Below, piece by piece: positions 19,354-63,516 of a stretch of DNA of 64,000 nucleotides. The position numbers were made by a program, and so were the translations under genes. The notes beneath the pieces are model-generated. The model saw only the letters and a program-made list of their open reading frames with translations. It was not told where the DNA came from and searched no databases. This stretch comes from Gammaproteobacteria bacterium. GTDB taxonomy: Bacteria > Pseudomonadota > Gammaproteobacteria > SZUA-229. The DNA is taken from NCBI GenBank assembly GCA_029882355.1, contig JAOUKV010000017.1, forward strand, positions 1 through 64,000, in the 5' to 3' direction. Positions within the stretch are counted from its first letter, which is position 1. Every line of letters starts with the position of its first letter.

Positions 19354-19382
19354 GTATACACTCATTAGCGAAGGAGAGAATT

Positions 19383-19628: not shown

Positions 19629-19704
19629 TAAAAAAGCTTATGGCAGGACTGCCAATATTGGTCGCCCTGCTTCAAGTTTTTCTGTTAGAAGTTGAGGTTT
19701 GTTC

Positions 19705-19962: not shown

Positions 19963-19990
19963 AGGACTTTCATTGATGTGGAGATAAATA

Positions 19991-20449: not shown

Positions 20450-20534
20450 ATAGATATATCTTGTATAAACATCTGGTGTTTGATTGAAATCCTGGTAATC
20501 TAGTCGGATTTTTCATATCCAAAAGTATCACAAA

Positions 20535-22115: not shown

Positions 22116-22176
22116 ATTGTTGATATAAATTCATAGTTCATTAAACAATGTTGCGGTTTAAAGTATAAAGCTATGA

Positions 22177-23241: not shown

Positions 23242-23243
23242 GT

Positions 23244-42352: not shown

Positions 42353-42353
42353 C

Positions 42354-42722: not shown

Positions 42723-42739
42723 TCCATTGGAGAATGAAA

Positions 42740-43510: not shown

Positions 43511-44607
43511 TGGCTATCGACGCAAAACAATGGCTGCAACGTATTCACGAATTGCCGCATAAAGACAAGGTGAAAATCATGAACGTCTGCGGTGGCCATG
43601 AGCGTTCGATCACCATGGCCGGTTTACGCAAGGCCCTGCCCGATTATATTGAGCTGGTACCAGGCCCCGGTTGCCCGGTTTGCATCTGTCCCGAAGAAGA
43701 TGTCTTTGAAGCGATTCAACTTGCCTTGAACGAAGACATTATTCTGGTCGCTTTCGGTGACATGTTACGCGTGCCGGTGAACGTAAAAAAAGTACAGGCA
43801 CGCACCCTGGAACAGGCCAAAGCTCAGGGCGCTGATATTCGCCCGATTGCCTCGCCGACAGAAGCGGTCAGCATCGCCAAGGCCAATCCCGATAAAGCCG
43901 TGGTGTTTTTTGCTGCGGGTTTTGAAACCACCACGGCACCGGTTGCCGCGATGATGGTTGAAGGCGTGCCCGACAATCTCGCCGTTTTATTATCCGGGCG
44001 TTTAACCTGGCCGGCGGTGGCCATGTTGCTGGAATCAGGTGAACCCGGCTTTGACGCATTAATTGCACCGGGTCACGTCTCAACAATCATGGGGCCGGAA
44101 GAATGGGGGTTTGTTGTAGAAGAGCACAACATCCCCGCTGCCATCGCTGGCTTCAAACCCGAAAGCCTGCTCGCGGCGATGTATTCTGTTTTACGCCAGC
44201 TCAACGAAGGCCGTTATTTTCTGGATAACTGTTACTCCGAATTAGTCAGGCCCGGTGGTAATAAATCCGCACAGGCTCATCTTAAAAAAGCCATGAAGGT
44301 TTATGATGCCAACTGGCGTGGTATAGGCATCATTGCCAAATCCGGATATATTTTAGAAAAGTCCTACAGCACGCACGATGCCAGAAAACTGTTCCCCTCC
44401 TACGCCAATGACGCCCGCAAACGCGCCGGCAAAATGCCACCAGGTTGTGATTGCGCACAGGTGGTGCTTGGCAAAATTTATCCCAATGAATGCAGACTAT
44501 TTGGCACAGCCTGCCTGCCCAGGAATCCGATTGGCCCCTGCATGGTCTCCGATGAAGGTGCCTGCCGTATCTGGTGGGCAGGTGGCATGCGTGAGCCTGC
44601 ACAATAA
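43510..44607 (+). CDS. hypD: Hydrogenase maturation Fe-S protein HypD
   Basis: A 365-residue HypD with the Fe-binding CGGHE block (MNVCGGHERSI), GPGCPVCICP and the C-terminal [4Fe-4S] cysteines in PPGCDCAQ, NECRLFGTACLPRNPIGPCMVSDEGAC. It is the scaffold, with HypC, on which Fe(CN)2CO is built. Its ATG overlaps the last base of hypB, and its 3' end overlaps hypF by 17 bp. Confidence 0.96.
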   Translation: MAIDAKQWLQRIHELPHKDKVKIMNVCGGHERSITMAGLRKALPDYIELVPGPGCPVCICPEEDVFEAIQLALNEDIILVAFGDMLRVPVNVKKVQARTLEQAKAQGADIRPIASPTEAVSIAKANPDKAVVFFAAGFETTTAPVAAMMVEGVPDNLAVLLSGRLTWPAVAMLLESGEPGFDALIAPGHVSTIMGPEEWGFVVEEHNIPAAIAGFKPESLLAAMYSVLRQLNEGRYFLDNCYSELVRPGGNKSAQAHLKKAMKVYDANWRGIGIIAKSGYILEKSYSTHDARKLFPSYANDARKRAGKMPPGCDCAQVVLGKIYPNECRLFGTACLPRNPIGPCMVSDEGACRIWWAGGMREPAQ

Positions 44608-46864
44608 ACAACAAACCAGCCCAACAGTTTCAGCCAGAAAGATTTTATTATCCGGTCAGGTTCAGGGCGTGGGTTTTCGGCCTTTTATTTACCGGCTGGC
44701 CTTAGAACATGATCTGGTCGGCTGGGTCAGAAACTGTGTCGGAGCTGTTGAAGTACATGTGCAGGGTGAAGCTGAAAATCTGGAAAACTTTGTAGGCGAC
44801 GTCTTTGCTAAAAAACCATCTTTGGCAAAACCCAAGCTTGAATCCGATGAGTTAACCGCCGTTGGTGAGTTTGAGATTTTTAGCATAAAAGAAAGCCAGT
44901 GCCAGGGAAACGCAAACATCAGTCTGCCCGCCGATCTTTTTCTTTGTGATGATTGTCTGGCCGAATTAAACGATCCTGCTGATCGCCGTTACCGTTATCC
45001 GTTCATTAACTGCACGCAGTGCGGCCCGCGTTATACCTTGATCAAAAAACTGCCTTACGATCGGCCCAATACCACCATGGCTGAATTTGAGCTATGCCCG
45101 GCCTGTCTGGCTGAATATCAGGATCCGGGCAATCGACGTTTTCATGCCGAACCCGTGGCCTGTCCAGATTGCGGGCCGTCGCTTTCGTTTGTCGTGGATG
45201 AAGTCATGCTCAACGATAATCAGTCCTCATTAAAAAAGGCGGTAGAGGTATTACGCCAGGGTAAAGTCATCGCCGTTAAAGGCATTGGCGGTTATCACCT
45301 GGTCTGTGATGCCAGTAATACTGATGCCGTCTCACGCTTACGTAAAAACAAGCCTCGACCGGATAAACCCCTGGCGGTGATGTTTCCGGCGCCCATCAAT
45401 AATCCATTTGAATACGCCGAGCAATCATTGTCTTTGAGCAAAGCGGATAAGGTTTTTTTACAGCAACCTGCCCGCGCTATTTTGCTGGTGCAAAAAAATT
45501 CAGCCTCTAAATTATCAGAACAAATCGCACCGGGTTTAAATGAAGTTGGCGTTATGTTGCCTTACAGTCCTTTACATCATTTGCTGTTGAACGATTTTGG
45601 CGGGCCGTTGGTGGCCACCTCAGCGAACATCTCCGGCGAGCCGGTTTTGATCCATAGTCACGATATTGAAAAACGCCTTGCCCATGTTGCCGATGCCTAT
45701 CTGCATCACAACCGATCAATTCAACGGCCCGCCGATGACCCGGTCTATAAAACCATCGCAGCGAAACCCAGGCCGATACGCACCGGTCGTGGCTCTGCGC
45801 CAATGGAATTGAGTCTGCCCTTTGAACTTGATCGACCCGTACTCGCCGTCGGCGCACACATGAAAAACACCATCACCCTGGCGTGGAAAAATCGCGCCGT
45901 GATTTCACCGCATATCGGCGAAATGGATTCAGCGCGTAGTATGGAAGTTTTCGAAAACACCATTAACGATTTGCAAAAACTTTACGGTGTGGCTGCCGAG
46001 TTAATTCTCTGCGATGCGCACCCGGGTTACAGCACAACACGCTGGGCGAAAAAACAAAATAAAACTGTGAAGAAAGTCCATCACCATCACGCCCATGCCT
46101 CTACGGCCTACTTTGAATGTGAAACAGATGAACGTGTAATGGTATTCACCTGGGACGGTGTCGGTTACGGAGAAGATGACACGCTCTGGGGCGGCGAAAC
46201 TTTTTTAGGCAAAGCGGGCGCGTGGCAACGAGTTGCCAGCATGCGACCGTTCTATCTGCCCGGGGGTGATAAAGCCGGTCGCCAACCCTGGCGCAGCGCC
46301 GCTGCGTTATGCTGGGAAATCGGTCAGGACTACGACGATATTCCAGAAAAAGACCCGCTGTTAAAACAGGCCTGGCAGAGAAAAATCAACACGCCGCAGA
46401 CCAGTTCAGTCGGACGAATATTCGATGCCGCCGCCGCATTAATCGGTGTAAGAAACGAGGCCAGTTTCGAAGGTCAGGGTCCGATGGAGCTGGAAGCGTT
46501 GTGCAATAACAGCAACCATCATATAGAACTCAATTTAGAAATCAGCAATAAATTATTGGTAACTGACTGGCAGGCACTAGTACCTGTTATGTTAGATTCT
46601 ACTTTAAGTCGAAATGAACGTGCTTCACTATTGCATACTTCATTAGCCCATGCCCTGTTGAAACAGGCAACCGCCATACGCGAGACTCACGGCATAAATA
46701 TTGTCAGTTTCGCCGGTGGCGTGTTCCAGAATCGCGTATTAAGCGAACAGGCGATAGCCTTATTAACGGCACATGGATTTGAAGCTCATCTACCAGAGTT
46801 GATACCAGTCAATGACGCGGGCATTAGTTTTGGGCAGGTTATGGAATATGGATTCAGTCAGTAA
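44591..46864 (+). CDS. hypF: Carbamoyltransferase HypF
   Basis: A 757-residue protein with the four HypF modules: acylphosphatase-like (ILLSGQVQGVGFRPFIY), two zinc fingers (CDDCLAEL...CTQCGPR and CPACLAEY...CPDCGPS), YrdC-like domain (GGYHLVCDAS) and Kae1-like domain (HHHHAHASTAYFE, DGVGYGEDDTLWGGE, FAGGVFQNRVL). It makes the carbamoyl group that becomes the cyanide ligands. The frame is open to 44378; GTG at 44591 is preferred because it has AGGTGG 5 nt upstream and gives the usual N-terminus. Confidence 0.94.
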   Translation: MSLHNKQQTSPTVSARKILLSGQVQGVGFRPFIYRLALEHDLVGWVRNCVGAVEVHVQGEAENLENFVGDVFAKKPSLAKPKLESDELTAVGEFEIFSIKESQCQGNANISLPADLFLCDDCLAELNDPADRRYRYPFINCTQCGPRYTLIKKLPYDRPNTTMAEFELCPACLAEYQDPGNRRFHAEPVACPDCGPSLSFVVDEVMLNDNQSSLKKAVEVLRQGKVIAVKGIGGYHLVCDASNTDAVSRLRKNKPRPDKPLAVMFPAPINNPFEYAEQSLSLSKADKVFLQQPARAILLVQKNSASKLSEQIAPGLNEVGVMLPYSPLHHLLLNDFGGPLVATSANISGEPVLIHSHDIEKRLAHVADAYLHHNRSIQRPADDPVYKTIAAKPRPIRTGRGSAPMELSLPFELDRPVLAVGAHMKNTITLAWKNRAVISPHIGEMDSARSMEVFENTINDLQKLYGVAAELILCDAHPGYSTTRWAKKQNKTVKKVHHHHAHASTAYFECETDERVMVFTWDGVGYGEDDTLWGGETFLGKAGAWQRVASMRPFYLPGGDKAGRQPWRSAAALCWEIGQDYDDIPEKDPLLKQAWQRKINTPQTSSVGRIFDAAAALIGVRNEASFEGQGPMELEALCNNSNHHIELNLEISNKLLVTDWQALVPVMLDSTLSRNERASLLHTSLAHALLKQATAIRETHGINIVSFAGGVFQNRVLSEQAIALLTAHGFEAHLPELIPVNDAGISFGQVMEYGFSQ

Positions 46865-46886
46865 AAATAACTAACAGGCAATAAAT

Positions 46887-47888
46887 ATGCAAGACACTCA
46901 CATTTCTCTCGCCCACGGTAATGGCGGTCGTTATATGCGCGAGCTTATCGAAGAGATTTTTGCTCGCCATCTTGCCAATGCCGATCTTGATGTACAGGCT
47001 GATGCCGTTCCCCTCTCGCTTGAAAGCAATGATCTTTTATTCACCACCGATGGATTCACCGTGCAGCCTTTAGAATTTCCCGGCGGCAACATCGGCTCGT
47101 TGGCTGTGCACGGCACCACCAACGATCTTGCCGTCGCTGGTGCGATTCCAAAATACCTGAGCCTGAATGCCTTCATCGAAGAAGGCCTGGAAATCGCGAC
47201 GCTGGATCGCATTATAAAAACACTGGCAGACACCGCCGCTGAAATCGGCGTCAAAGTTGTCTGCGGTGATACCAAAGTTTTACGCCGTGGTGAAGGCGGT
47301 GGTTTGTATCTCGCCACCACCGGCATAGGCATTCGCAATGGCCACATACTCACCATGAAAAATATCAAAGATGGCGATGTGATTATTGTCAGCGGCCCGG
47401 TCGGCGATCACGGCATCGCCGTTATGCTGGCACGTGAAGAATTCGGTCTACGCGGTGACATCCAGTCCGATGCCGCCAGCGTTTTAAACCTGACAAAAGC
47501 CGCGCACAAATTTACAGGCCTACGCTTCATGCGCGACCCTACTCGCGGTGGTATTGCTACCGTCTGTTCAGAAATGCATCGAGCTACCGGTATGGGTGTT
47601 CGATTGTCTGAGCAGAATTTGCCAGTGCGTGATGCGGTGCAATCGGTGTGTGACATGCTGGGGTATGATCCGATGTATCTCGCCTGTGAGGGCCGGGTTG
47701 TGGCGGTGGTTGATCCGTCTGAGGCAGGGGCACTACTGGAAGTTTGGCGCGGCCTGGAAGAAGGTAAAGAGGCCGCCATCATCGGTCAAATAGATTCAGC
47801 AATTGCCTACGTCTTGATGGAAACTGGGATCGGTGGCGAACGTATACTCGAGGAACTCGAAGACGATCCCTTACCAAGGATTTGTTGA
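46887..47888 (+). CDS. hypE: Carbamoyl dehydratase HypE
   Basis: A 333-residue ATP-dependent dehydratase of the AIR-synthase fold: ISLAHGNGGRYMRELIEEIF, FTTDGFTVQPLEFPGGNIGSLAVHGT, GPVGDHGIAVMLAREEFG and DPTRGGIATV. It ends in PRIC, whose last Cys carries the thiocarbamate turned into thiocyanate. It is last in the hyp operon, 22 bp after hypF. No hydrogenase protease gene follows. Confidence 0.96.
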   Translation: MQDTHISLAHGNGGRYMRELIEEIFARHLANADLDVQADAVPLSLESNDLLFTTDGFTVQPLEFPGGNIGSLAVHGTTNDLAVAGAIPKYLSLNAFIEEGLEIATLDRIIKTLADTAAEIGVKVVCGDTKVLRRGEGGGLYLATTGIGIRNGHILTMKNIKDGDVIIVSGPVGDHGIAVMLAREEFGLRGDIQSDAASVLNLTKAAHKFTGLRFMRDPTRGGIATVCSEMHRATGMGVRLSEQNLPVRDAVQSVCDMLGYDPMYLACEGRVVAVVDPSEAGALLEVWRGLEEGKEAAIIGQIDSAIAYVLMETGIGGERILEELEDDPLPRIC

Positions 47889-50375: not shown

Positions 50376-51326
50376 TTAATAAGGTGAACGACTTTTTTTG
50401 AGACAAAGATCAACCAGGTCATTAAGTCGTGCAGTTCCTGCACACATCACTGTATCCGCCCCACCCCAGTAAATTATTACATTACCCCTGTCATCTTCTA
50501 CTGCACCGCAGGTGAAGACAACATTGTGCACATAACCAGTCAGTTCCCACGGATCTTGCGGTGACAATATCCACTCATCTGAAACACCGATAATGTTTAC
50601 AGGGTTGTTGAGATCGTGCAACGCTACGCCGAGGCGATAAACTGCGCCGTCCATCGTTTCGAATACACCGTGATAAATATTGAGCCAGCCACGTTCAGTA
50701 CGAATCGGTGTGGCACCGGGACCAATTTTGCTTTCATCCCAATGATAGGCAACGGGTTTCATCACCACTTGTGAATCGCCCCAGTGAATTAAATCTGGTG
50801 ACCATGACAACCATACCGACCACGGGCTGATTTCCGAATGCGGACGATCCAGTCGTGCGTAACGTCCATTAAATTTCTCGGGAAAGATGACGACGTTGCG
50901 CATGTCGGCCTGTGTGATTATTGAAACCCGTTCGACGGTTTTAAAGTCACTTGTTTTTGCCAGAGCAATGCGCACACCGTGTTGTGAATAGACACTGTAG
51001 GTAATTAAATATTCACCATCGATGCAGCAGATCCTGGGGTCTTCAACACCGGAGGCCTCGTACTCGGCAAACACACCATCTTCTGATGGAACAATGAAAG
51101 GCTCTGGACTGACGGTGAAATTGAAACCGTCTTCGCTTTCAGCTAATCCAATAATGGAACGACCTGTGCGTAGATGTGAACGAAACAACATGATGATGCG
51201 ATCACCATAACGTGTCATGCCAGCATTGTGCACGGTCTCAACGGGGTAAGGAATATCATCTTTGGTCAAAATCGGGTTGCCCGGGTAACGCTCGATGATT
51301 GGCGGTGTTTTATTTAACGCGGTCAT
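50376..51326 (-). CDS. GH130-family mannoside phosphorylase/hydrolase
   Basis: A 316-residue five-bladed beta-propeller of GH130. The start at 51326 is chosen because GGAGG lies 7 nt upstream; the frame is open 21 codons further. Features are YPGNPILTKDDIPYPVETVHNAG, the catalytic-Asp block SGVEDPRI, and GPGATPIRTERGWLNIYHGV. Family members phosphorolyse beta-mannosides. The start overlaps the GT4-cupin gene by 17 bp, so the two are translationally coupled. Confidence 0.88.
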   Translation of the reverse strand: MTALNKTPPIIERYPGNPILTKDDIPYPVETVHNAGMTRYGDRIIMLFRSHLRTGRSIIGLAESEDGFNFTVSPEPFIVPSEDGVFAEYEASGVEDPRICCIDGEYLITYSVYSQHGVRIALAKTSDFKTVERVSIITQADMRNVVIFPEKFNGRYARLDRPHSEISPWSVWLSWSPDLIHWGDSQVVMKPVAYHWDESKIGPGATPIRTERGWLNIYHGVFETMDGAVYRLGVALHDLNNPVNIIGVSDEWILSPQDPWELTGYVHNVVFTCGAVEDDRGNVIIYWGGADTVMCAGTARLNDLVDLCLKKSRSPY

Positions 51327-52659
51327 AATCATCCTCCAGACGAATGATATCGTCCTCACCAAAATAATCACCCATCTGAACTTCGACAATTACCAGCGGG
51401 ATATCGCCGGGGTTCAAGATTCTATGTACCGCGCCTCTGGGAATATCGACCGACTCACTCGGTTTGAGAAGAATTTCATTCTCGCCTACGGTCACCAGCG
51501 CTTCACCAGCTACCACAATCCAGTGTTCTGCACGGCGCTGATGTTTTTGCAGGCTTAGTCGCTCGCCCGGATTAACGATGAGTTCTTTAATTTTATGATC
51601 ATCCCATTCGAGCAAGTTTTCGTAATGTCCCCAGGGGCGATAATTTTCTCTTTCTTCGAGTATCTGGTGATAGACCTTCACATACTCATATGCCATGCGC
51701 TTACTGGTAAAACGTCGCTCAACATCTTCACGACAATCGTGTCGGTTAAGTGAATCAATCTTGTTTACTGCCTGCACGGCGGCATCGACATCATCGACAA
51801 GAAAACCTGTTGTGCCATGGCGAATAATCTCCGGCATGGAGCCGCGCTCATAAGCAATCACTGGTGTACCACAGGCCATGGATTCAACCACACTTAAACC
51901 AAATGGCTCGTCAAAATAAATGGGGTGCAATAAAGCCAACGCGTCACCCAGAACCGTCTGCCTTTGTTCCGGGCCAACGGAACCAATGTATTCAACCATC
52001 AAACCATCAATATACGGTTCGACCTTTTCTTTGTAATAAACTTCATCCTGAATAATACCCGCGATGATCAAACGCTTGCCTGTTCTACGTGCGACCTCAA
52101 TGGCATCATGAACGCCTTTGTCGGGATGGATACGGCCAAAGAACAACAGATAGTCGCCCTGCTCTGGTTTAAACGGAAACTGTGCGAGATCAATACCGTG
52201 ATGAATGGTGGCAAGGTAATCAAGTTCAGTACATTTGTCAGCTTCGCTAATCGCCACATAATAGGTACTGTCGTTGTACTCTTTATAAACGGGCAATATG
52301 GAATCTGAAGAAAATCCGTGGATGGTGGTGACTATTGGTGTATCGGTAAAGTCACTGTAACTGAGTGGCAGAAAATCGTATTGATTGTGAATCAGGTCAA
52401 ATTCATCGGCCCGCTTGAACAACTCGGCGATATGCAGGCATTCCCAAACCTTGGCATCAATACTGGGATCTTCTGAATAAGGTCGCTCGCAGACCCAGGC
52501 AAGTTCAGCGCTGGTGAGGGAGTCTCCGGTAGCGAATAAGGTCACCTCAATACCTAACGACACCAGTTGCTCGGTGAGCAGGCTGACCACGTTTTCCCAG
52601 GGGCCGTAATGACGTGGTGGGGTACGCCAGGATAGTGGACTTAACATCGCAATCTTCAT
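51310..52659 (-). CDS. GT4 glycosyltransferase fused to a mannose-6-phosphate isomerase-type cupin
   Basis: A 449-residue fusion from the ATG at 52659. Residues 1-335 form a GT4 (GT-B) transferase: PRHYGPWENVVSLL, FFGRIHPDKGVHDAI and the donor-site EPFGLSVVESMACGTPVIAY. Residues about 340-449 are a cupin starting YRPWGHYENLLEWDDHK with HQRRAEHWIVVAGEALVTVG and IPRGAVHRILNPGDIPL, matching the C-terminal domain of type II phosphomannose isomerases. The domain may bind a mannose phosphate or the GDP-mannose donor. The frame is open 17 codons upstream of this start without family match. Confidence 0.88.
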   Translation of the reverse strand: MKIAMLSPLSWRTPPRHYGPWENVVSLLTEQLVSLGIEVTLFATGDSLTSAELAWVCERPYSEDPSIDAKVWECLHIAELFKRADEFDLIHNQYDFLPLSYSDFTDTPIVTTIHGFSSDSILPVYKEYNDSTYYVAISEADKCTELDYLATIHHGIDLAQFPFKPEQGDYLLFFGRIHPDKGVHDAIEVARRTGKRLIIAGIIQDEVYYKEKVEPYIDGLMVEYIGSVGPEQRQTVLGDALALLHPIYFDEPFGLSVVESMACGTPVIAYERGSMPEIIRHGTTGFLVDDVDAAVQAVNKIDSLNRHDCREDVERRFTSKRMAYEYVKVYHQILEERENYRPWGHYENLLEWDDHKIKELIVNPGERLSLQKHQRRAEHWIVVAGEALVTVGENEILLKPSESVDIPRGAVHRILNPGDIPLVIVEVQMGDYFGEDDIIRLEDDYDRVK

Positions 52660-52932
52660 GGAAGAACTGCCTGCACAGCATCGCCGCGCGTTGTTTTTAT
52701 TGACCAGCAACCAAATCTTATAACACAGTATAATGATTCCTACAAAATAAGATAATCATGAACTTGATACAAAGCACTTTGCTGGGTAAATAAATATAAC
52801 AGACATCAAATATTTGTAGATTGTTTCACAAAAAGACTAAGATTCATTCATAGAAAAAGTGGTTTATTTAAGAGTTAATTCGGTTATTGTTGTCTTACCA
52901 ATATATAGTTTGTAGTTCATTGGGGTGTACTT

Positions 52933-54432
52933 ATGACAGAAGCTAATTCCATTCCTCCTGTTCCTCAGGCACGACGTAAACCTATCGTCATCAATGCCGA
53001 GATCAATCGTGTCATAACTCGCCCGTATATTCCGCACACCGAGGAGCGCATCCGCAATATTATCAACCGCATATTAGATTTGGGTGAAGACGATGCCTGT
53101 ACATTACTGGATGCTGTGCTGAATAATTTTTCTCATCGTCATCGTTATTTCAGAGAAGCGTTACAGCGAAACTTTGATAACGTGGCCAGATATATACCCG
53201 ATGGCTGTACGCTGTCTGAACAACGGGAACTCCTTATTGGTTCCTATTTTACCGCTGAATATTCTGTGGAAGCGGCCGCCCTGTTCAACCCTTCTGTGGT
53301 TCGGGTGGCCAATCTTGAAACTGACCCGGCAGGTGCCTGTCGTTTCATTATGAGTTTTCGAGGTGTCGGTGAAGGACATATCTCATCCATTGAATTTCGT
53401 GGTGGATATATTGATGAAAATACAGATATTTATTTTGACCCGCTGAGTAATCACGTCCGCACGCCGACAATTCATACCGACTCAAGTTATGACCGTGCCC
53501 TGTTTCGATTAAAGCTTCAGGATATTGGCGCCAATAGTAATGTAGCAGACTGGTTACTCGGTGATTTCCCTGACGAATTCACTTTTAGTGAGTTACAGGA
53601 AAGAATTTCATCCCCTTATACGGGTAAAAAAATCCGAGAAAAAGATAAAGAAGAAGCTATTGAAAAAGCCATGTGGATAGCTCGATCCAATTATCACATT
53701 TCATTTCGTGAAGAGCACCCTGTTTCAGAACGAGTGATATTTCCAGTCTCACAATCCGAAAGCCAGGGAATTGAAGATGCCCGCTTTGTACGTTTCATCG
53801 GAGATGATGGCGCGGTGACTTATTATGCTACTTATACTGCGTACAATGGTGAAACCATCCTGCCACAATTGATAGAAACCTGTGATTTTATCAGTTTCAA
53901 GGTTAGTACCCTGAATGGAAAACAGGCGAATGGTAAAGGCATGGCGCTGTTCCCCAGAAAGATTGGTGGCAAATACGTGATGTTGTCACGTCAGGATGGT
54001 GAGAATAATTCAATTATGTTTTCGGACAACTTATATTTCTGGAAAAAATCCGAAATGCTACAAACACCTCGTTTTCCCTATGAGTTTTTTCAGGTTGGCA
54101 ATGGTGGCTCCCCCATTGAAACCGACGAGGGCTGGCTGGTGATTACTCATGGTGTTGGCCCAATGCGAACTTATAGTCTCGGTATTGAATTGCTGGATCT
54201 GGATGATCCAAGCAAAATTATCAGCCGTATTGATGAACCTATTCTAGTACCGAATGAACACGACCGTGAAGGTTATGTGCCAAACGTTGTTTACAGTTGT
54301 GGCGCAATGATTTTTCAGAATGAATTAATTATTCCCTATGCCTCAGCCGACCAGCGCTGTGGTATTGCAACACTGAATATGCCAGCGCTTATGGCCAGAC
54401 TGCTTTACAACAAAAGCGCACAATGGCAATAG
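52933..54432 (+). CDS. GH130-related protein, long form
   Basis: A 499-residue protein. Residues about 1-170 are an N-terminal helical region (RITRPYIPHTEERIRNIINRIL-like start) not found in the short GH130 copy. The rest has GH130 propeller features: GIEDARFVRFIG (catalytic-Asp position), FPRKIGGKYVMLSRQDGEN, GGSPIETDEGWLVITHGVGPM and GYVPNVVYSCGA. Like other large GH130 forms it may act on mannosyl oligosaccharides. It is divergent from the GT4-cupin gene, sharing a 273-bp gap. Confidence 0.85.
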   Translation: MTEANSIPPVPQARRKPIVINAEINRVITRPYIPHTEERIRNIINRILDLGEDDACTLLDAVLNNFSHRHRYFREALQRNFDNVARYIPDGCTLSEQRELLIGSYFTAEYSVEAAALFNPSVVRVANLETDPAGACRFIMSFRGVGEGHISSIEFRGGYIDENTDIYFDPLSNHVRTPTIHTDSSYDRALFRLKLQDIGANSNVADWLLGDFPDEFTFSELQERISSPYTGKKIREKDKEEAIEKAMWIARSNYHISFREEHPVSERVIFPVSQSESQGIEDARFVRFIGDDGAVTYYATYTAYNGETILPQLIETCDFISFKVSTLNGKQANGKGMALFPRKIGGKYVMLSRQDGENNSIMFSDNLYFWKKSEMLQTPRFPYEFFQVGNGGSPIETDEGWLVITHGVGPMRTYSLGIELLDLDDPSKIISRIDEPILVPNEHDREGYVPNVVYSCGAMIFQNELIIPYASADQRCGIATLNMPALMARLLYNKSAQWQ

Positions 54433-54472
54433 CTAATGGTAATAGAATAACGCCAGCGTCAAATTATTTAGA

Positions 54473-56794
54473 TCACTGAGCCAGATTCTTTTCATCCACC
54501 CGTTTGATCTCGCCCCGCCCACGGTGTTTATATATAGCCAATAAAGCCATGAGCCAGCACAAGGTAGATTCAGCACCCTGATTTTCATTGACGCCATGCG
54601 ACATTAATCCGTCTCGACAGCCTCCAGTGGCGTGATCGTAGAGTGAAAGATGCAGTTCGTTTTCGCCCTGATACCAGTTGAGACAGCGGTAGGCATACGT
54701 AATCCATTCTTCGTTACGTGTTAATTTAAATGCATCTATACAGGCATCGATCATCGCAGCTGCCTCAATCGGTTGCTGATCAAACTGTGCCTTATTACCA
54801 CCCCTGGTGTACCAGCCATGATTACCAATTGCGGAAAAATATCGATCCAGATCATCGTGCTGAATTTTTTTCAGCCAATCGAGTGTGCTTAGTGCGGTAT
54901 TAATCATTTCATCATTTTCCAGCCACTGTCCTGACAATAATAATGCCTGCGGTAAACGTGCATTATCGTAGGTCAAGGTCTCCTCACACCAGAGCCAATC
55001 TCCACTGGCATCATTTCTTAACCATTGCATCAACCGCTCTGAAAGTATCCTGCAGGTATTTTCTATCTGGCTACTTTCACGGTTGCTCTTTAGGTAGGCA
55101 TGAATACCAATGATGGTGAAAGCGACAGCTCGTGGTGAGTTAAAATGCTCAACCGCGGGCAAAGCACGTTGGAATAAATCGGCGGCGTGATTGACCTGGC
55201 CTTCATTCCTGCCTAAAGCAACAGCTACGCCCAGCCCCCACAGCGCACGTCCATGAGAATCTTCAGAGCCCTGCTCTTCTATCCAATGACGTTCGTAAGA
55301 CATAAAATTACGAAACAGCCCTGTATCGCTATTGAAAGCATGATCTATAAAACTTAAATAGACAGAAGCAAGCTCATTTAAAGATACGTCTCGTGGCTGA
55401 AAATTCTGAGCGGTAACCACAACAATCAGTGCGCGTGCATTGTCATCAACACAGTAACCATGTTCACGATCGGGCACGGTATATTTAGAATGTTGCAGCA
55501 TGCCCACTCCATCAGTCATGCGCAGCAAATGATCGAGTTTGATTTCCGGTAATGATTGCTGGCGCAAACCGAGCGGACCCAGACCAAATCCTGGTACAGA
55601 TTTACGTAGGCGATGCTGTCGTGATTGTTCGAATGTTTCGATGTAACGGCTAGCGACATTACTCCAGATCATCTGCCTTCCGTATTCATAGGCTTTACGC
55701 TGTATGAGGCGAAGCTCATCAGGATTATCCAGCAAATCGATAACATCGCTGGCGAGCTGAGCATGATCACGGAATGGAATCAGCCTGCCCCGACCGTCCT
55801 CGAGTAACTCTTCTGCATGCCAGTAAGGTGTGGAAATTATGGCTTTGCCCATACCCAGAGCATAAGCAAGCGTACCGGAGATAATCTGAGCCTCGTTCAA
55901 ATATGGCGTGATATAAATATCAGATGCACCAACAAACTCCAGCAGATCTTCGTCCGTCACAAAATGATTATGAAAAATCACATGGTCCTCAACACCGAGC
56001 TTTTTCGCATGCAGGTGAAGACCAATTCTGTAATCCTCTCCCTGTTCTGCCTGGAGGTGCGGATGAGTAGCGCCAACCACCATATAAATAACATCCGGGT
56101 GGATTTTCAGTATTTCTGGCAGAGCATCGATCACCACCTCGATACCTTTACCGGGTGAAAGTAGTCCTAATGTGAGCATTACTTTCTTTCCGGATACACC
56201 AAATTTATCTTTATAAGTTGCAGACTCAAGCAGAGGTACATCAGGAATACCATGATGAATCAGAACAATTTTTTCAGCGTCCACCTCATAGATGTCTCGT
56301 AAAAATTCAACTGAGCGCTCACTCATCACCACTAACCGATCAGACAGGTCGGCCAGTTGTTTGATGATATGTCGCTCCCTATTACCAGGGTTCTTCAAAA
56401 TGGTATGCAACGTAGTCACAATCGGCATTTTAAGATCGCTAAGCAATTCGAGGATGAAGCTGCCTCGCTGACCACCGAATATGCCGTATTCATGCTGAAC
56501 ACAGACTACATCAATCTGGTTGAGGTTGAGCTGGTCGGCAACCATGCTGTAATCCCTGAGATGATCCTGATTGATTTCGAGCCGTACCTGTGGCGGATAA
56601 TCATAACCTTCTGGTCGGTCACTCATCGCAACTGCCCAGCAGTCTGTATGAGCTGCTTTAAGTGCGATTGAATCAAGAAGATGCGTGGTGAACGTAGCGA
56701 TACCACAGAGTCTGGGCATGTGATTACCGATCAGAACGATAGAGTTCAGTACTTTGTTTTCTGGATGGTTACCAGACTCGCTGTGATTATCCAT
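54473..56794 (-). CDS. GT4 glycosyltransferase with C-terminal helical glycosidase-like domain
   Basis: A 773-residue protein. Residues about 17-400 are a GT4 transferase (IGNHMPRLCGIATFTTHLLDS, GLLSPGKGIEVVIDAL, NEAQIISGTLAYALGMGKAI). Residues about 415-760 are all-helical with repeated Trp-containing blocks (GYCVDDNARALIV, EDSHGRALWGLGVA, WLWCEETLTYDNARLPQALL, ENQGAESTLCWL), resembling an (alpha/alpha)6 barrel seen in glycosidases and epimerases. It is convergent with the long GH130 gene. Together with the neighbours it suggests synthesis and phosphorolysis of a mannose-containing glycan. Confidence 0.85.
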   Translation of the reverse strand: MDNHSESGNHPENKVLNSIVLIGNHMPRLCGIATFTTHLLDSIALKAAHTDCWAVAMSDRPEGYDYPPQVRLEINQDHLRDYSMVADQLNLNQIDVVCVQHEYGIFGGQRGSFILELLSDLKMPIVTTLHTILKNPGNRERHIIKQLADLSDRLVVMSERSVEFLRDIYEVDAEKIVLIHHGIPDVPLLESATYKDKFGVSGKKVMLTLGLLSPGKGIEVVIDALPEILKIHPDVIYMVVGATHPHLQAEQGEDYRIGLHLHAKKLGVEDHVIFHNHFVTDEDLLEFVGASDIYITPYLNEAQIISGTLAYALGMGKAIISTPYWHAEELLEDGRGRLIPFRDHAQLASDVIDLLDNPDELRLIQRKAYEYGRQMIWSNVASRYIETFEQSRQHRLRKSVPGFGLGPLGLRQQSLPEIKLDHLLRMTDGVGMLQHSKYTVPDREHGYCVDDNARALIVVVTAQNFQPRDVSLNELASVYLSFIDHAFNSDTGLFRNFMSYERHWIEEQGSEDSHGRALWGLGVAVALGRNEGQVNHAADLFQRALPAVEHFNSPRAVAFTIIGIHAYLKSNRESSQIENTCRILSERLMQWLRNDASGDWLWCEETLTYDNARLPQALLLSGQWLENDEMINTALSTLDWLKKIQHDDLDRYFSAIGNHGWYTRGGNKAQFDQQPIEAAAMIDACIDAFKLTRNEEWITYAYRCLNWYQGENELHLSLYDHATGGCRDGLMSHGVNENQGAESTLCWLMALLAIYKHRGRGEIKRVDEKNLAQ

Positions 56795-56937
56795 AAGCGT
56801 TATTTACCGTTATTGGCATTAGTCTTGCAAATACATCCGATCAAGCATCAGATATCAGAAATGTAATGATTTGAATCAGTAAACAATTGATATTTTACAG
56901 TTTCAACTAAATTTTTTATTTAGCCTATTCGTACTTG

Positions 56938-58110
56938 ATGTATGATGATGAAAGTATTTATAACATATATCGCAATGTTAAGTCATTGTTCAGGACATTC
57001 GAAAATGGAGTCAGAGCATTGTTTTTTCAGACTGATCAATTGCAACATCTACTAAGCGCCTTATCGTCAAAAGGTTATAACTGCATTGGGCCTCAGGTCA
57101 GGGATGATGCAATCATCTACGACGAACTCCATGCTATCGATCAACTGCCTCAGGGTTTCAATGACCAGCAGGCACCGGGAAGTTATACGTTAAGCAGGAA
57201 CAATTCTACAAAATTTTTCGACTGGGCCAATGGCCCACAGGCAATCAAGCCAAATCTATTTTCACCGCGTGAAAAAATCTGGCAGTCAGAACAGGCCGCT
57301 GACGGTGCAATCTCTTTTAACACCACAGAACCTGATCCCAGACCAATAGCCATTATCGGCGCACGAGCCTGCGACGTTGCCGCCATGAAAATTCAGGATC
57401 AGCATTTTCTTGAACAGGAATTTATCGACCCTTATTACAAAACACGACGGGAAAGTTTATTGGTCGTTGCCGTCAACTGTAGCCACCCTGCCGACACCTG
57501 TTTTTGCTATTCCACTGGCGATGGGCCTTTTGTTGATGATGGTGCCGACATTGTGCTAACAGAATTAAACCAGGGTTTTTTAATTGATACGTACACCGAT
57601 CAGGGCAAAGAAATACTCAAGGCACTGACTCTGCTAGAGAGTACTAGTGAACATATTGAACAGGCCGAATCGATTAAAGCGAAAGCTTCGGCGCAAAAAC
57701 GTAGCCTGCCTGCATTTGAAATTAAAACGCGTTTGTTCAATGAGCTAAACAATGATGCCTGGCATGAAATTGCGACTAAATGTTTAAGCTGCGGAAACTG
57801 CACCTCGGTCTGCCCTACCTGTTTTTGTCATAGTGAAACTGAAGTGCCCGAACTCGATGGAAAATCATCGACCCATTATCGGCAATGGGATTCGTGTTTT
57901 TCTCAGGGCCACAGTTATATTCACGGCATCACCATTCGCAGCGAAACCAGTCAACGATATCGTCAGTGGTTAACACACAAGTTTGCAAGCTGGCACGAAC
58001 AGTATGGCCGCTCGGGCTGTGTCGGTTGCGGTCGTTGCATCACATGGTGTCCTGTTGGTATCGATGTCACCGAATCCTTGAAAAATTTTGAGGAAAGACG
58101 CCGTGATTAA
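56938..58110 (+). CDS. hydB: Group 3b hydrogenase beta subunit (iron-sulfur, HydB)
   Basis: A 390-residue iron-sulfur subunit. VRDDAIIYDEL near the start and the block RPIAIIGARACDVAAMKIQDQHF are typical of the 4Fe-4S dicluster subunit of sulfhydrogenase-type enzymes. The C-terminal third has two ferredoxin clusters: CLSCGNCTSVCPTCFCH and CVGCGRCITWCPVGID. It passes electrons between the hydrogenase and the flavin subunit. The gene opens the hydB-G-D-A operon and overlaps the next by 8 bp. A TTG one codon earlier is an alternative start. Confidence 0.9.
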   Translation: MYDDESIYNIYRNVKSLFRTFENGVRALFFQTDQLQHLLSALSSKGYNCIGPQVRDDAIIYDELHAIDQLPQGFNDQQAPGSYTLSRNNSTKFFDWANGPQAIKPNLFSPREKIWQSEQAADGAISFNTTEPDPRPIAIIGARACDVAAMKIQDQHFLEQEFIDPYYKTRRESLLVVAVNCSHPADTCFCYSTGDGPFVDDGADIVLTELNQGFLIDTYTDQGKEILKALTLLESTSEHIEQAESIKAKASAQKRSLPAFEIKTRLFNELNNDAWHEIATKCLSCGNCTSVCPTCFCHSETEVPELDGKSSTHYRQWDSCFSQGHSYIHGITIRSETSQRYRQWLTHKFASWHEQYGRSGCVGCGRCITWCPVGIDVTESLKNFEERRRD

Positions 58111-58936
58111 CCCTTACGAACCTCAGGAAGCGATTATTCTTGATCGTATTCAGGAAGCCTCTAACCTGTTCACCTTGCGATTAAATTTTACCGACCCGGA
58201 AATTCAGAATGCCTACGAATTTGAACCCGGACAGTTCAATATGCTGTATTTATACGGGGTCGGTGAAGTAGCTATTTCAATCGTATCTGATCCTGAATGC
58301 AGCCATATTATTGATCACACCATTCGTATTGTAGGTCGTGTAACTAGAGGTATAGCCAATCTTAAAAAAGGTGATCGTATTGGTTTGCGTGGGCCTTATG
58401 GCCGTGGTTGGCCAATGCTCGAATCAAAACAAAAAGATGTTGTGGTGGTCACCGGTGGTCTGGGTTGTGCGCCGGTAGTTTCGGTTATTAATTATATTGA
58501 ACAGCGGCGCGAGGAATTTGGTCACCTGAACATTGTGCAGGGCGTTAAACACACCGCTGATTTCATCTGGAAGCATCGCTATGATAACTGGCGTGAAATG
58601 CCAGACACTAAAGTGCTACTCGCCGCTGATGTCGGCGAAGCATTATGGCCATGGCACGTTGGTCCGGTCACTTCGCTTTTTGACCAGCTTGAATTTGATC
58701 CGAATAATGTATCGGTAATGATGTGCGGCCCCGAAGGTATGATGCGAGTAGTTTGTGATCACATGCTGGATAAAAGCGTGCCGGCATCACAACTTTTTTT
58801 GTCGATGGAAAGAAACATGCAATGTGCCGTCGGGCATTGTGGCCATTGCCAGTACGGCAGCAAGTTTATCTGTAAAGACGGCCCGGTATTTAGTTACGAG
58901 AAGATTCGTGATTTATTTGAGACCAAAGGTTTTTGA
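58103..58936 (+). CDS. hydG: Group 3b hydrogenase gamma subunit (FAD/NAD(P)-binding, HydG)
   Basis: A 277-residue ferredoxin-NADP-reductase-type protein. FEPGQFNMLYLYGVGEVAISI is the FAD site, VVVVTGGLGCAPVVSVINYIE the NAD(P) phosphate loop, MMCGPEGMMR the nucleotide site, and CAVGHCGHCQYGSKFICKDGPVF a [2Fe-2S] cluster of four Cys. The GTG at 58103 has GAGGAA 7 nt upstream and overlaps hydB by 8 bp; a TTG at 58088 is the longer option. It couples H2 to NAD(P)H. Confidence 0.92.
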   Translation: MINPYEPQEAIILDRIQEASNLFTLRLNFTDPEIQNAYEFEPGQFNMLYLYGVGEVAISIVSDPECSHIIDHTIRIVGRVTRGIANLKKGDRIGLRGPYGRGWPMLESKQKDVVVVTGGLGCAPVVSVINYIEQRREEFGHLNIVQGVKHTADFIWKHRYDNWREMPDTKVLLAADVGEALWPWHVGPVTSLFDQLEFDPNNVSVMMCGPEGMMRVVCDHMLDKSVPASQLFLSMERNMQCAVGHCGHCQYGSKFICKDGPVFSYEKIRDLFETKGF

Positions 58937-58937: not shown

Positions 58938-59714
58938 ATGAGCAAACCAACCGTTGCAGTTCATAAATTCAGCTCCTGTGATGGCTGTCAACTGGCGCTG
59001 ATTAATCTGGGCGAACCTTTGCTGGTATTGACTGAGCTGGTCGATATTCTTCACTTTGCCGAGGCCGGCCCAGTCGATGAAGATGCCAAAGTTGATATCG
59101 CCATTATCGAAGGCAGCATATCCGCCTCACACGATATCGAACGCATCAAAAAAATTCGTGACAACAGCACCTACTTAATTACCATCGGTGCCTGCGCAAC
59201 GTCTGGCGGCATACAGGCGCTACGCAATATGGCAGACACCAATCAATGGATTGCAGGCATCTACGCCAATCCATCGGTCATTGACACTTTAGACAACAGC
59301 TCAGCGATTAAAGACTACGTCAATGTTGACCTTGAATTATGGGGTTGCCCTGTCAGTCAACGACAAATCATCAATGCCATACGCGCCCTACTATTTGGCG
59401 TCATGCCGGTTGAGGAACACGACAAAATTTGCATGGAATGCAAACGCCATCAAACAGTTTGCGTGATGGTGACGAAAGGTGAACCCTGCATGGGGCCAGT
59501 AACGCGCACCGGCTGCGGTGCACTCTGCCCCAGTGTCGGACGAGACTGTTACGGCTGTTACGGCCCGGCAGAAAATCCGAATACACAGGCCATGGCCAAT
59601 CGACTAGAAGGGCTTGGACTGGTCAGCGATGAAGTCGCCCGACGCTTTCTGTTCATCAACAGTGGCGCCGATGCATTTCATCAACAGGGCTTGCTTAGTA
59701 AGGAGACGGATTAA
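58938..59714 (+). CDS. hydD: Group 3b hydrogenase delta (small) subunit HydD
   Basis: A 258-residue [NiFe] small subunit starting MSKPTVAVHKFSSCDGCQLALINL, with the proximal cluster CxxC. IGACATSGGIQALRN and ELWGCPVSQRQIINAI supply the other proximal ligands, and the C-terminal cysteines (CMECKRHQTVC, GPVTRTGCGALCPSVGRDCYGCYG) the further clusters. No Tat signal, so a cytosolic enzyme. It begins 1 bp after hydG and ends directly at the ATG of the large subunit. Confidence 0.95.
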   Translation: MSKPTVAVHKFSSCDGCQLALINLGEPLLVLTELVDILHFAEAGPVDEDAKVDIAIIEGSISASHDIERIKKIRDNSTYLITIGACATSGGIQALRNMADTNQWIAGIYANPSVIDTLDNSSAIKDYVNVDLELWGCPVSQRQIINAIRALLFGVMPVEEHDKICMECKRHQTVCVMVTKGEPCMGPVTRTGCGALCPSVGRDCYGCYGPAENPNTQAMANRLEGLGLVSDEVARRFLFINSGADAFHQQGLLSKETD

Positions 59715-61478
59715 ATGTCAACCGATACCATCAAAATTAACGTCCCCATACTCACGCGTGTTGAAGGTGAAGGTGCACTCGATTTAACCATCGAAGACCA
59801 GAAAATCACCAAGCTTAATTTGCGCATCTACGAACCACCACGTTACTTCGAAAAATTTCTCGAAGGCCGTAACTATTACGACGTGCCCGATACCGTCGCC
59901 AGAATTTGCGGTATCTGCCCCGTCGCATATCAGATGAGCGCATCACACGCGATTGAATCGATATTTGATGTCGAAATCACACCCTGGATTCGCGCCATGC
60001 GTCGCCTGTTCTATTGCGGTGAATGGTTACAGAGTCATGCTCTGCATATTCATTTATTGGCTGTACCCGATTTTCTCGGCTTTAACAGCGTTATTGAAAT
60101 GTCTGCAAAATATGGTGACGAAGTTCGCCGTGGTTTAAAACTGCAGGCGCTGGGTAATGATCTTATTGCCCTGTTTGGTGCGCGTTCTGTTCACCCCGTC
60201 GGTGCCAAGATCGGCGGCTTTAGCAAATCGCCTAATCAGAAAGATGTCGACGAATTATTGCAGCGTGTCACAAAGGCAAAGCAGGATTCGATTGATTTAA
60301 TTCACTGGCTGGATACGCTGGAGCTACCGGAAGATAATCAGGACTTTGTCTCCGTTGCTTTGCACCATGATGATGAATATCCGCTCAATGAAGGTCGCTT
60401 AATCAGCGACCATGGACTCGATATCCCCATCAGTAAATTCGAAAAACATTTTAAGGAAATGCATGTCGATCACAGCACCGCCCTGCATTGCCTGTTAGAT
60501 GGCAAGCCCTACCTGGTTGGGCCGCTGGCAAGAGTTAATTTAAATGCAGCTCAACTACCCGACGACACTAAAGCCATCATGCACAACCTTAAAACGCGCT
60601 TCCCTTCGAAGAACATGTTCCACAGCATTATTGCACGCGCCATTGAAATTCACTTCACCCTGATTGAAGCCGAAGAACTGCTGGTGAATTATGATTATAC
60701 CAATGAACCTTGCATGACATTTAAACCAAAGTCAGGCACCGGCTACGGCTGCACCGAAGCACCCCGCGGCATACTCTGGCACCGTTATGATATGGACAAA
60801 CACGGTTGCGTTAAAAAAGCCGTCATCGTACCACCCACCAGCCAGAACCAGCCGCGTATCGAACAGGACTTACAAAACTCGCTAATCAAGTTTGGTCTGG
60901 ACAATGAAAAAAAAGATTTACAACTGCACGCAGAAAAAGTCATCCGCAATTACGATCCCTGTATTTCCTGTGCAACACATTTTCTTAATCTTAATTTAAT
61001 TCGTGACGGTGTTGTTGAGCAGAGTGGGAAAAAAGAAACCTTGTTTAATAACGTTAATTTAAATAAAACCGCCATCATCGGCATCGGCTCACCCAATGAT
61101 GGCGATAAACTCGGCTGGCAGGTAATTGATAAGTTACAAAATGACAAACGTATTAGCGAATTAAAAAAGAAAGGCCTGAGCTTATTTAAACTTGATAGAC
61201 CTGGTGTTCTTCTAGGTGAAAGCATTAAAGATTATGAACATGTATTGATTATTGATGCCATCAAGCCAGGTACGACGACTGCTTCTTTTATATTTATCGA
61301 TGGTAAGCAGGTAAATTCAACCTCCTCCCAGCTCTCCAGTCATGAAACAGGCGTTATTGAATCCATGGGCTTGCTTAAAGCCTTAGAGTTATTACCGGAG
61401 GAACTGGTATTAATTGGTGTTTCTAAAATAAGTGACGAGTTGCTAGAAAAAATACTAGAGCTGATCAAAATACGTTGA
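59715..61478 (+). CDS. hydA: Group 3b hydrogenase alpha (large) subunit fused to an M52 maturation protease
   Basis: A 587-residue protein. Residues 1-425 are the [NiFe] large subunit: L1 motif RICGIC (63-68) and L2 motif DPCISCATH (414-422), the four Ni-Fe cysteines. Normally a protease cuts just after this His. Here the frame runs on through a 28-residue linker into residues 451-587: KTAIIGIGSPNDGDKLGW, LIIDAIKPG, LSSHETG, the M52 (HycI/HybD) fold with metal-ligand positions Asp464, Asp514, His543. A self-processing precursor is inferred. No stop or Met separates the parts; a TTG at 61041 could give a free protease. Confidence 0.9.
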   Translation: MSTDTIKINVPILTRVEGEGALDLTIEDQKITKLNLRIYEPPRYFEKFLEGRNYYDVPDTVARICGICPVAYQMSASHAIESIFDVEITPWIRAMRRLFYCGEWLQSHALHIHLLAVPDFLGFNSVIEMSAKYGDEVRRGLKLQALGNDLIALFGARSVHPVGAKIGGFSKSPNQKDVDELLQRVTKAKQDSIDLIHWLDTLELPEDNQDFVSVALHHDDEYPLNEGRLISDHGLDIPISKFEKHFKEMHVDHSTALHCLLDGKPYLVGPLARVNLNAAQLPDDTKAIMHNLKTRFPSKNMFHSIIARAIEIHFTLIEAEELLVNYDYTNEPCMTFKPKSGTGYGCTEAPRGILWHRYDMDKHGCVKKAVIVPPTSQNQPRIEQDLQNSLIKFGLDNEKKDLQLHAEKVIRNYDPCISCATHFLNLNLIRDGVVEQSGKKETLFNNVNLNKTAIIGIGSPNDGDKLGWQVIDKLQNDKRISELKKKGLSLFKLDRPGVLLGESIKDYEHVLIIDAIKPGTTTASFIFIDGKQVNSTSSQLSSHETGVIESMGLLKALELLPEELVLIGVSKISDELLEKILELIKIR

Positions 61479-61651: not shown

Positions 61652-62089
61652 TTGACAGACAGAAATTCAAATGAATTTATTGGTCGTTATACGCGGTTCG
61701 CGTTAGCTAAAAAAACGTATTCTGAAATCGCTAATACAATTGCATCATTTGATGAAGAAAAAAGGATACAGCTTAAAATAGCAATTTTTGTATTTGCGAT
61801 ACTAATAGCATTTTTTGCCTCATCTATATTTTATATAGGCTGTGTAAAACCTTGGAACCACTTTGTAGGCTACCATCATGGATCAATTACAGGTTTACAC
61901 AAAGACTCCTGTACGAACAAAAAGTATTTTTATATGCGCACTGAAATAAATAATGATAATGTTATGGTTCAACTAAATTGTAGCAGTGGTCACAAAACTG
62001 GTGATACAGTTACAATAGCAGAGTACAAATGGAATGATAATTTAACAACATACAAGGAAGCAGAAACTATATGCCTACTAAAACCCTAA
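61652..62089 (+). CDS. Cassette gene 1: membrane-anchored protein of unknown function
   Basis: A 145-residue protein with a TTG start 11 bp after the first attC-like site, as usual in cassettes. A charged N-terminus leads to one TM (QLKIAIFVFAILIAFFASSIFYIG, about 57-80) and an extracytoplasmic part with four Cys (one near the TM exit, DSCTNK, LNCSSG, ETICLL). Codon use is AT-rich compared with the hydrogenase genes. The stop codon lies inside the R'' box of the following attC. No family recognised. Confidence 0.65.
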   Translation: MTDRNSNEFIGRYTRFALAKKTYSEIANTIASFDEEKRIQLKIAIFVFAILIAFFASSIFYIGCVKPWNHFVGYHHGSITGLHKDSCTNKKYFYMRTEINNDNVMVQLNCSSGHKTGDTVTIAEYKWNDNLTTYKEAETICLLKP

Positions 62090-62173
62090 CAAATCAATCA
62101 AGCTCGCCCACAAAAAGCGTGGGCTGGGACTAGGCGATACAGCCCGCCGCGCCCCTTATTTCAAACGTTAGCA
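62084..62173 (+). other. attC site 2
   Basis: R'' is CCCTAAC (62084-62090) and R' is GTTAGCA (62167-62173). Between them are GCCCAC...GTGGGC and GGGCTG...CAGCCC stems and the L-box region TTATTTCAAAC. It is about 88% identical to the next site (62740-62829), as expected of sites from one integron platform. Confidence 0.85.
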
Positions 62174-62195
62174 CTTATAACAAGGAGAAAAAGAA

Positions 62196-62732
62196 ATGCA
62201 TATAGTATTATCAGTTTTGGGAGTAATCGTAACTATCCTGATTTTACTCAATCGAATGAACGATGGAGGGATTGATATAGGTTGGCTTAACCCCTTTGCA
62301 TGGAAAAGACGGAAAGATTGGGCTAAAAAATATCATGCAGATCCAATTTACTCACTTGAAAGCCCAATGGATGTAACGGCAGTTCTAATAGTCGCTTTGG
62401 CCAAAAGTGAAGGTGAAATAAGTTCTGAACAAAAGTCTGAAGTATTAAGAAAATTCAACGAGGTATTTCACCTGGATGATAATGCCTCTGCTTCTTTGCT
62501 TCGCTCTAGCACATTTTTATTAAAGGATAATATTTCATCTATTGAGAACATGCAGAAATTGATGGCACCAAGTAAAGAGTCATTCAGTATAGAGCAGATC
62601 ACATCAGCTTTTTCGCTTTTAAAGCATATAGCTAGCTATGAAAGCCCACCTAATTCATTCCAAAAAGGCATTATTAAATCATTTAAAAAATATTTTGACT
62701 CCACTTTAAATGATGTGCCTGAGTGGTCATAG
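62196..62732 (+). CDS. Cassette gene 2: membrane-anchored TerB-like protein
   Basis: A 178-residue protein with AAGGAG 9 nt before the ATG. An N-terminal TM (VLSVLGVIVTILILLN) is followed by a helical domain VTAVLIVALAKSEGEISSEQKSEVLRKF, resembling TerB/DjlA-type acidic helical bundles. It ends before a second attC almost identical to the first. No enzymatic residues evident. Function unknown. Confidence 0.7.
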   Translation: MHIVLSVLGVIVTILILLNRMNDGGIDIGWLNPFAWKRRKDWAKKYHADPIYSLESPMDVTAVLIVALAKSEGEISSEQKSEVLRKFNEVFHLDDNASASLLRSSTFLLKDNISSIENMQKLMAPSKESFSIEQITSAFSLLKHIASYESPPNSFQKGIIKSFKKYFDSTLNDVPEWS

Positions 62733-62739
62733 GGAGAAG

Positions 62740-62829
62740 TGCTAACAAATCAAACAAGTTCGCCCACAAACAACGTGGGCTGGAACTAGGCGATACAGCC
62801 CGCCTAGCACCTTATTTCAAATGTTATAT
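62740..62829 (+). other. attC site 3
   Basis: R'' is TGCTAAC (62740-62746) and R' is GTTATAT (62823-62829). Internal stems GCCCAC/GTGGGC and GGGCTG/CAGCCC are shared with the previous site. The site ends inside the start region of the next gene. Confidence 0.85.
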
Positions 62830-62835
62830 TTAAAC

Positions 62836-63516
62836 ATGATGAAACACAATGACTTAATTACTGAGTCCGAACTAAGAAAACCAATTAAGACAACGGAAGC
62901 TGAAAAATGGGTAAGATCTTTATTAGAAAGGTATCATGATACTGAAGATAAAAAACGATATTTAATACTTAAAAATGGTATCGTAAAAAAAGTTGTTGAT
63001 GAACTTATTCCATTATCTAGATACTCAAAACATGAATATAATCAATCATCCATTTACTTAAAATATTATCCTGATTCAAGGCAATCATTCGATGCAGAAT
63101 TTATCGATAAAAACAATAATGTAATAGAGCGCGTAGAAGTTACTATGGCTATAAGTGGCCAAAACAGAAGAATTCAAGATGAGCACTTCATAAAGTATTC
63201 TCATACGCCACTATTTAAAACACTTAAGTCCTCAGGAAAAGTGGGAGATAGAGTTTTAAATGAACATGAATTAAGTTGTATTGACCAGGAAACAATTATA
63301 AAAATCCAGTCAGATCTTCTTCAAAGTGCGTATGATAAAAAGCAATGTAACATAACTAAATATCCAGATACTACATTATTGATTGGCCTAGATATCCCTG
63401 TACATATGAAATCAGAATTTCATCAAATTATTAATACATTCAAACCAGAAATAAATACTTTTAAAGCAATAAAGTGTGTGAGTATTTGTGGGCTACATTA
63501 CAGTTGCTTGCAATAG
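62836..63516 (+). CDS. Cassette gene 3: unknown protein, possible nuclease-like core
   Basis: A 226-residue soluble, AT-rich-encoded protein starting MMKHNDLITESELRKP. The frame is open to an ATG at 62821 inside attC, but the tandem ATGs at 62836/62839 are the likely start; no good ribosome site is visible. FDAEFIDKNNNVIERVEVTMA (about 87-107) has a D-x(n)-E-x-T hairpin like a PD-(D/E)xK core, an inference only. C-terminal TLLIGLDIPVHM follows. No family recognised. Confidence 0.6.
   Translation: MMKHNDLITESELRKPIKTTEAEKWVRSLLERYHDTEDKKRYLILKNGIVKKVVDELIPLSRYSKHEYNQSSIYLKYYPDSRQSFDAEFIDKNNNVIERVEVTMAISGQNRRIQDEHFIKYSHTPLFKTLKSSGKVGDRVLNEHELSCIDQETIIKIQSDLLQSAYDKKQCNITKYPDTTLLIGLDIPVHMKSEFHQIINTFKPEINTFKAIKCVSICGLHYSCLQ

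Follow-up and report, generated by a model that had tools for sequence, protein, structure and literature searches.

Introduction

In the maturation of [NiFe] hydrogenases, nickel must be in place before an endopeptidase cuts the large subunit after the histidine of the DPCxxCxxH motif; after the cut, the tail closes the active site (PMC12134894, PMC6769069). Cleavage after this histidine of the L2 motif is established for the family (PMC6769069), and in enzymes of the processed type it permits the C-terminal cysteine to close the active site (PMC12134894). The M52 endopeptidases, including HybD, HycI, HyaD and HoxW (TIGR00072), are free proteins in the literature consulted, where reviews as well as experimental papers deal with the protease as a protein in its own right (PMC6769069, PMC5299533, PMC12134894). 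How the endopeptidase senses nickel is not settled: the metal is called a recognition motif, yet the proteases bind large subunits that lack the C-peptide (PMC6769069, PMC5299533, PMC12134894).

In this study we describe a gammaproteobacterial gene that joins both partners in one reading frame. The closest described proteins are the alpha subunits of the group 3b or sulfhydrogenase-type enzymes (HydA, ShyA), such as Pyrococcus furiosus SH-I and Thermococcus HyhL, with which the locus shares the large-subunit domain, the L1 and L2 motifs and the HydBGDA gene order. The start of the C-peptide (FL) is common to the fusion and the proteobacterial members of the group. However, nearly all surveyed group 3b members end 7-12 residues past the cleavage-site histidine, whereas the protein described here continues for 165 residues beyond H422, the protease among them. 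With the M52 endopeptidases the fused protease domain shares the domain match, the three metal ligands and the expected substrate site; unlike them, it is covalently attached to its substrate through the peptide that is to be removed. The same two genes occur in the same order as separate pairs on a Burkholderia savannae plasmid, on a Rhodococcus plasmid and in Marinobacterium, but these pairs overlap by 4 bases, lie in different frames and make two proteins instead of one. A more distant likeness, by analogy and not by homology, links the fusion to autoprocessing proenzymes such as viral polyprotein proteases and inteins. Here, too, a protease within a precursor would release itself, yet, in contrast to those systems, the release would be gated by the insertion of a metal cofactor.

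Both domains of the fusion belong to known families. As far as tested, the new element is their arrangement, i.e., a metalloenzyme precursor joined to its own maturation protease by a cleavable peptide. The fusion is not described in the open literature searched, and prior notice is possible in subscription journals or domain-architecture databases.

Architecture of the fused gene and its operon

The window, a stretch of 64,000 nucleotides (positions 1 to 64,000 of contig JAOUKV010000017.1), harbours a single uninterrupted frame of 587 codons, coding for 587 amino acids, at 59715-61478 on the forward strand. The initial annotation had read this frame as a [NiFe] hydrogenase large subunit fused to its own maturation protease. 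The reading was borne out, since the frame is open and both domains score above the curated Pfam cut-offs. Residues 1-422 (59715-60980, +) form a group 3b large subunit of the HydA/ShyA type according to Pfam and NCBIfam models, phmmer and the predicted structure. Its L2 motif DPCISCATH (residues 414-422) lies at 60954-60980 (+), exactly where it had been placed, and is invariant in fused and unfused relatives; the expected scissile bond, H422-F423, follows base 60980. The next 28 residues (60981-61064, +) comprise the former C-peptide FLNLNLIRDG and a variable linker, and are predicted to be disordered (pLDDT <50 for residues 417-440). The M52 hydrogenase maturation endopeptidase domain (residues 451-587; 61065-61478, +) starts near residue 451, 28 residues past H422 as previously noted. 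The distance from DPC to the stop codon amounts to 174 residues, including the M52 domain.

The large-subunit part of the protein is matched by Pfam NiFeSe_Hases (E 5e-29) and, over residues 7-425, by the NCBIfam sulfhydrogenase alpha models ShyA (E 3e-79) and HydA (E 2e-65), whose scores lie below the equivalog cut-offs and support an assignment at the family level only. A phmmer search retrieved Thermococcus and Pyrococcus alpha subunits (E 2e-61), and the nearest solved relatives are the alpha subunits of the soluble hydrogenases from the same two genera (PDB 5yxy/9nez, E about 1e-60). The predicted structure of the large subunit superimposes on chain H of 9nf0 over 413 residues (Z 52, 1.8 A). 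All four cofactor cysteines are present, C65 and C68 in the L1 motif RICGIC and C416 and C419 in L2, and they are invariant across the fused clade.

The genes for the beta, gamma and delta subunits are all located upstream of the fused gene on the same strand and were assigned with NCBIfam models: a HydB-type Fe-S beta subunit (56935-58110, +), a HydG-type FAD/NAD(P)-binding gamma subunit (58088-58936, +) and the hydrogenase small (delta) subunit HydD (58939-59714, +; sulfhyd_HydD/ShyD). The open frame listed for HydD begins at 58755, which is too early; the NCBIfam match starts at residue 66 of this frame and places the true start near 58939. Judged by its sequence, the fused gene encodes the alpha subunit of a cytosolic group 3b (sulfhydrogenase-type, HydBGDA) [NiFe] hydrogenase. 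The short C-peptide cut by a separate endopeptidase, a usual though not strictly defining trait of the group, is absent here, which makes the protein a variant, and still a member, of group 3b. Downstream of the hydrogenase genes (61652-63516) follow three frames of 145, 178 and 231 amino acids, none of which matches Pfam; the first and the third are also without a PADLOC or NCBIfam match.

Identity and integrity of the protease domain

The C-terminal domain is recognized by Pfam HycI (PF01750) with an E value of 1.4e-7 and a score of 31.9 (curated cut-off 23) and by the hydrogenase maturation protease model TIGR00072 with 57 bits (cut-off 47.45), the E value being 1.9e-15 with the domain alone. 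A profile built from the domain and its relatives matches HybD (1cfz/2kml; E 2e-13). The metal ligands Asp464, Asp514 and His543 had been positioned correctly: in the alignment they fall on the metal-ligand positions of M52 proteins, and none of the three varies among the 37 M52 domains compared (14 fused and 23 free). Likewise, H422 and F423 are invariant in all aligned large subunits. The register of D464 relative to HybD is ambiguous by one residue, as this subfamily lacks one residue of the metal loop, a feature that the fused domains share with the free M52 proteins of group 3b operons. D464 is the sole invariant acid in the metal loop of the M52 alignment and would correspond to Glu16 of HybD.

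The ratio dN/dS is 0.12-0.21 for the M52 domain versus 0.04-0.08 for the large subunit, values that are rough, with several pairs near synonymous saturation. In the main fused clade, M52 divergence is about 2.9 times that of the large subunit; three sets of unfused gene pairs give values of 2.0-3.4. Purifying selection acts on the fused M52 domain. Neither such dN/dS values nor a divergence ratio in the range of unfused pairs would be expected of a domain without a remaining role. A degenerate protease was rejected on account of this rate comparison, the dN/dS values and the intact ligands.

An AlphaFold2 model based on 65 sequences comprises two well-folded domains (mean pLDDT 86.8). In the joining stretch (residues 417-440), the confidence is too low for the model to reveal a docked state before cleavage. 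The M52 domain is modelled mostly with high confidence as alternating strands and helices, and the Foldseek list obtained with the model is filled by large-subunit matches. In all fused proteins measured, from both fused groups, 41-53 residues span the distance from the scissile histidine to the ligand aspartate, which is ample for looping back to the protein's own active site.

Recurrence of the fusion in related bacteria

A search for further proteins of this architecture was successful. The fusion occurs among uncultured and mostly marine bacteria, and at least 21 of their genomes carry it: 14 from the family of the window genome, two near relatives (L007, L040), one representative of another family (G110) and four Ectothiorhodospiraceae-type MAGs (L012, L013, L014, L030). 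The assumption that the two genes are otherwise separate holds for nearly all hydrogenases; the fusion, however, is not confined to the window genome and marks a whole clade. A sample of 398 genomes from the phylum was surveyed as well, and the group 3b matches inspected there included no fusion outside the Gammaproteobacteria.

A complete copy is present in 11 genomes of the family, the window genome included, and in each of them the gene is one uninterrupted frame of 583-610 codons. In G018, the gene is split over two contigs that match exactly over a 127-base overlap within the gene and lead on into the M52 domain, and partial copies in G042 and G021 span the join. Independently assembled relatives have the join at the identical place at 68-82% full-length identity. 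In unfused relatives, the large-subunit stop codon lies 7-12 residues past the cleavage-site histidine, close to the start of M52, and this position would suit a stop codon lost, or an indel acquired, in a single assembly. Yet many independent assemblies share the architecture, with the span between the domains kept and the linker sequence diverged. The possibility of a missing stop or an indel between the domains was thus excluded by the relatives, and the probability of an artefact is negligible.

The genome of L003 (same genus) contains, about 11 kb from its intact fused gene, a 79-codon fragment (G039:C24:6685-6909) with 48% identity to residues 509-583 of the fusion, which may be a second, decaying copy of the M52 end.

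Probable origin from overlapping gene pairs

Unfused large subunits of group 3b relatives end 16-21 residues past the start of the DPC motif. Where an adjoining M52 gene is found, it usually lies in another frame and overlaps the large-subunit stop codon by 4 bases. Such an overlapping pair is the likely ancestral state as judged from these gene arrangements, and the fusion would most simply be derived from it through loss of the stop codon and a shift of frame, a new linker having formed between the two parts.

The large-subunit tree groups the main fused clade with G110 (support 97). In the M52 tree, a single clade of the main group and the Ectothiorhodospiraceae group is rejected (AU p 0.0185) and a single clade of all fused M52 domains is not (p 0.126); in the large-subunit tree, a grouping of the main clade with the Ectothiorhodospiraceae group is not rejected either (p 0.36). 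The fused domains of the Ectothiorhodospiraceae group adjoin the free M52 protein of L034 in the M52 tree (support 95), and due to this placement the trees favour at least two fusion events. The four Ectothiorhodospiraceae-type fusions also carry a different M52 subtype, in which a Cys-x-x-Pro-like segment replaces LDRPG and which resembles the free M52 proteins of L017, L021 and L034. This difference in subtype suggests a separate fusion event.

Other maturation genes and proteases

The hyp maturation operon is located at 42125-47888 (+) and consists of hypC (42125-42322, with a model match), hypA, hypB (42734-43510), hypD (43510-44607), hypF (ending at 46864) and hypE (46887-47888). As the initial annotation had pointed out, no protease gene is found among these six genes, and this observation extends to the entire genome (2.88 Mb, 98.5% complete): searches with PF01750 and TIGR00072 at E values up to 10 yielded no second M52 match, which ruled out a separate M52 gene elsewhere in the assembly. 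The scenario of a separate protease specific for this enzyme next to a fused domain devoid of ligands does not apply, as there is no other M52 protein and the ligands are intact. Since the fused domain is the sole M52 match, nothing else of this kind is available for cutting the precursor. The genome encodes one large subunit above the family cut-off. In two further genomes of the genus, G041 (97% complete) and G044 (98% complete), the fused domain is also the only M52.

Five relatives (G002, G009, G018, G040, G050) possess an additional free M52 gene besides the fused one, in each case on the same contig as another hydrogenase-like large subunit, which is the likely client of the extra protease. 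In these genomes the free M52 protein could also act in trans on the fusion.

About 9 kb separate the hyp operon from the hyd operon. The intervening region (50376-56794) contains, by eye, glycosyltransferase-like and GH130-type mannoside phosphorylase-like genes without an obvious connection to hydrogenases.

A model for self-processing of the precursor

The existence of the fusion and the competence of its protease are well supported by the sequence comparisons. We put the probability at roughly 75% that the gene product is an autoprocessing precursor, in which the "C-peptide" would be the protease itself, carried on a disordered tether of about 28 residues and gated by the insertion of nickel; that the cut is made in cis is what we infer. 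HypCD and HypAB would load Fe(CN)2CO and Ni, while the large-subunit domain stays open and the M52 domain hangs on its flexible tether of about 28 residues. With Ni in place the tail would become accessible, and the tethered protease would dock on its own large subunit and cut the H422-F423 bond, most likely in cis. Subsequently, C419 would swing in and bridge Ni and Fe, the site would close, and the M52 domain (about 18 kDa) would come free with the old C-peptide still on its N-terminus. As the fusion makes protease and substrate 1:1 and permanently close, the nickel dependence of the cut would have to reside in a gate, catalytic or conformational, rather than in selective binding. A stricter version, which we offer tentatively and at somewhat less than even odds, is a single-use, nickel-triggered and cis-acting proenzyme that stays latent until Ni arrives, cuts once, leaves self-blocked by its C-peptide and evolved more than once from overlapping pairs.

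The most serious competitor, though an improbable one, is processing in trans, whereby the fused M52 domain cuts other precursors, or a few released domains act with multiple turnover, the benefit of the fusion being confined to co-expression and stoichiometry. As a rule, M52 proteases act in trans, and they are able to form a stable complex with the large subunit (PMC5299533); the ancestral pair already overlapped by 4 bases and was probably translationally coupled, and the mechanism need not have changed; and other M52 proteins are kept in some members of the family. However, a flexible tether should create a very high local concentration, such that the encounter in cis would dominate unless the geometry forbids it, and the C-peptide on the N-terminus of a released domain could block its cleft. 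Some [NiFe] hydrogenases need no C-terminal processing at all (PMC12134894, PMC7654741), and the M52 moiety might accordingly stay uncleaved as a lasting part of the mature subunit, or else be a vestige. This is very unlikely, given that the cleavage-site His-Phe pair and the three ligands are invariant in every aligned fused protein, that the domain is under purifying selection, and that closure of the active site by the C-terminal cysteine depends on cleavage in processed-type enzymes (PMC12134894). Even less credit is due to the notion that the frame gives rise to two products, with free M52 also being made from a start codon inside the linker. The linker of the window gene contains a TTG codon and some relatives have other possible starts, yet none of these starts is found at a conserved position, and in L003 the stretch from L2 to the M52 motif is devoid of start codons; an internal start was therefore rejected.

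The self-processing precursor, if it works as proposed, bears on nickel sensing, as the covalent pair removes the binding step and parts recognition from catalytic gating within one chain. Moreover, the fusion would offer a one-gene route to the expression of a hydrogenase large subunit that needs no additional protease gene, and, equipped with a ligand mutation, a natural construct for the structural trapping of a precursor-protease complex.

Further features of the window

Two adjoining genes at 8310-12910 have nearly identical N-terminal starts (MNLKSK...PLIIIPILMIGAVS) and apparently represent tandem duplicated membrane sensors. A possible defence island extends over 17086-25409. It includes genes for a Fic-domain protein (17086-18624), a Vsr nicking endonuclease (19991-20449), a DNA cytosine methyltransferase (20535-22115), a response-regulator-like neighbour (22177-23241) and a GHKL-ATPase protein with two HATPase domains (23244-25409), which is weakly similar to a type II restriction enzyme model.
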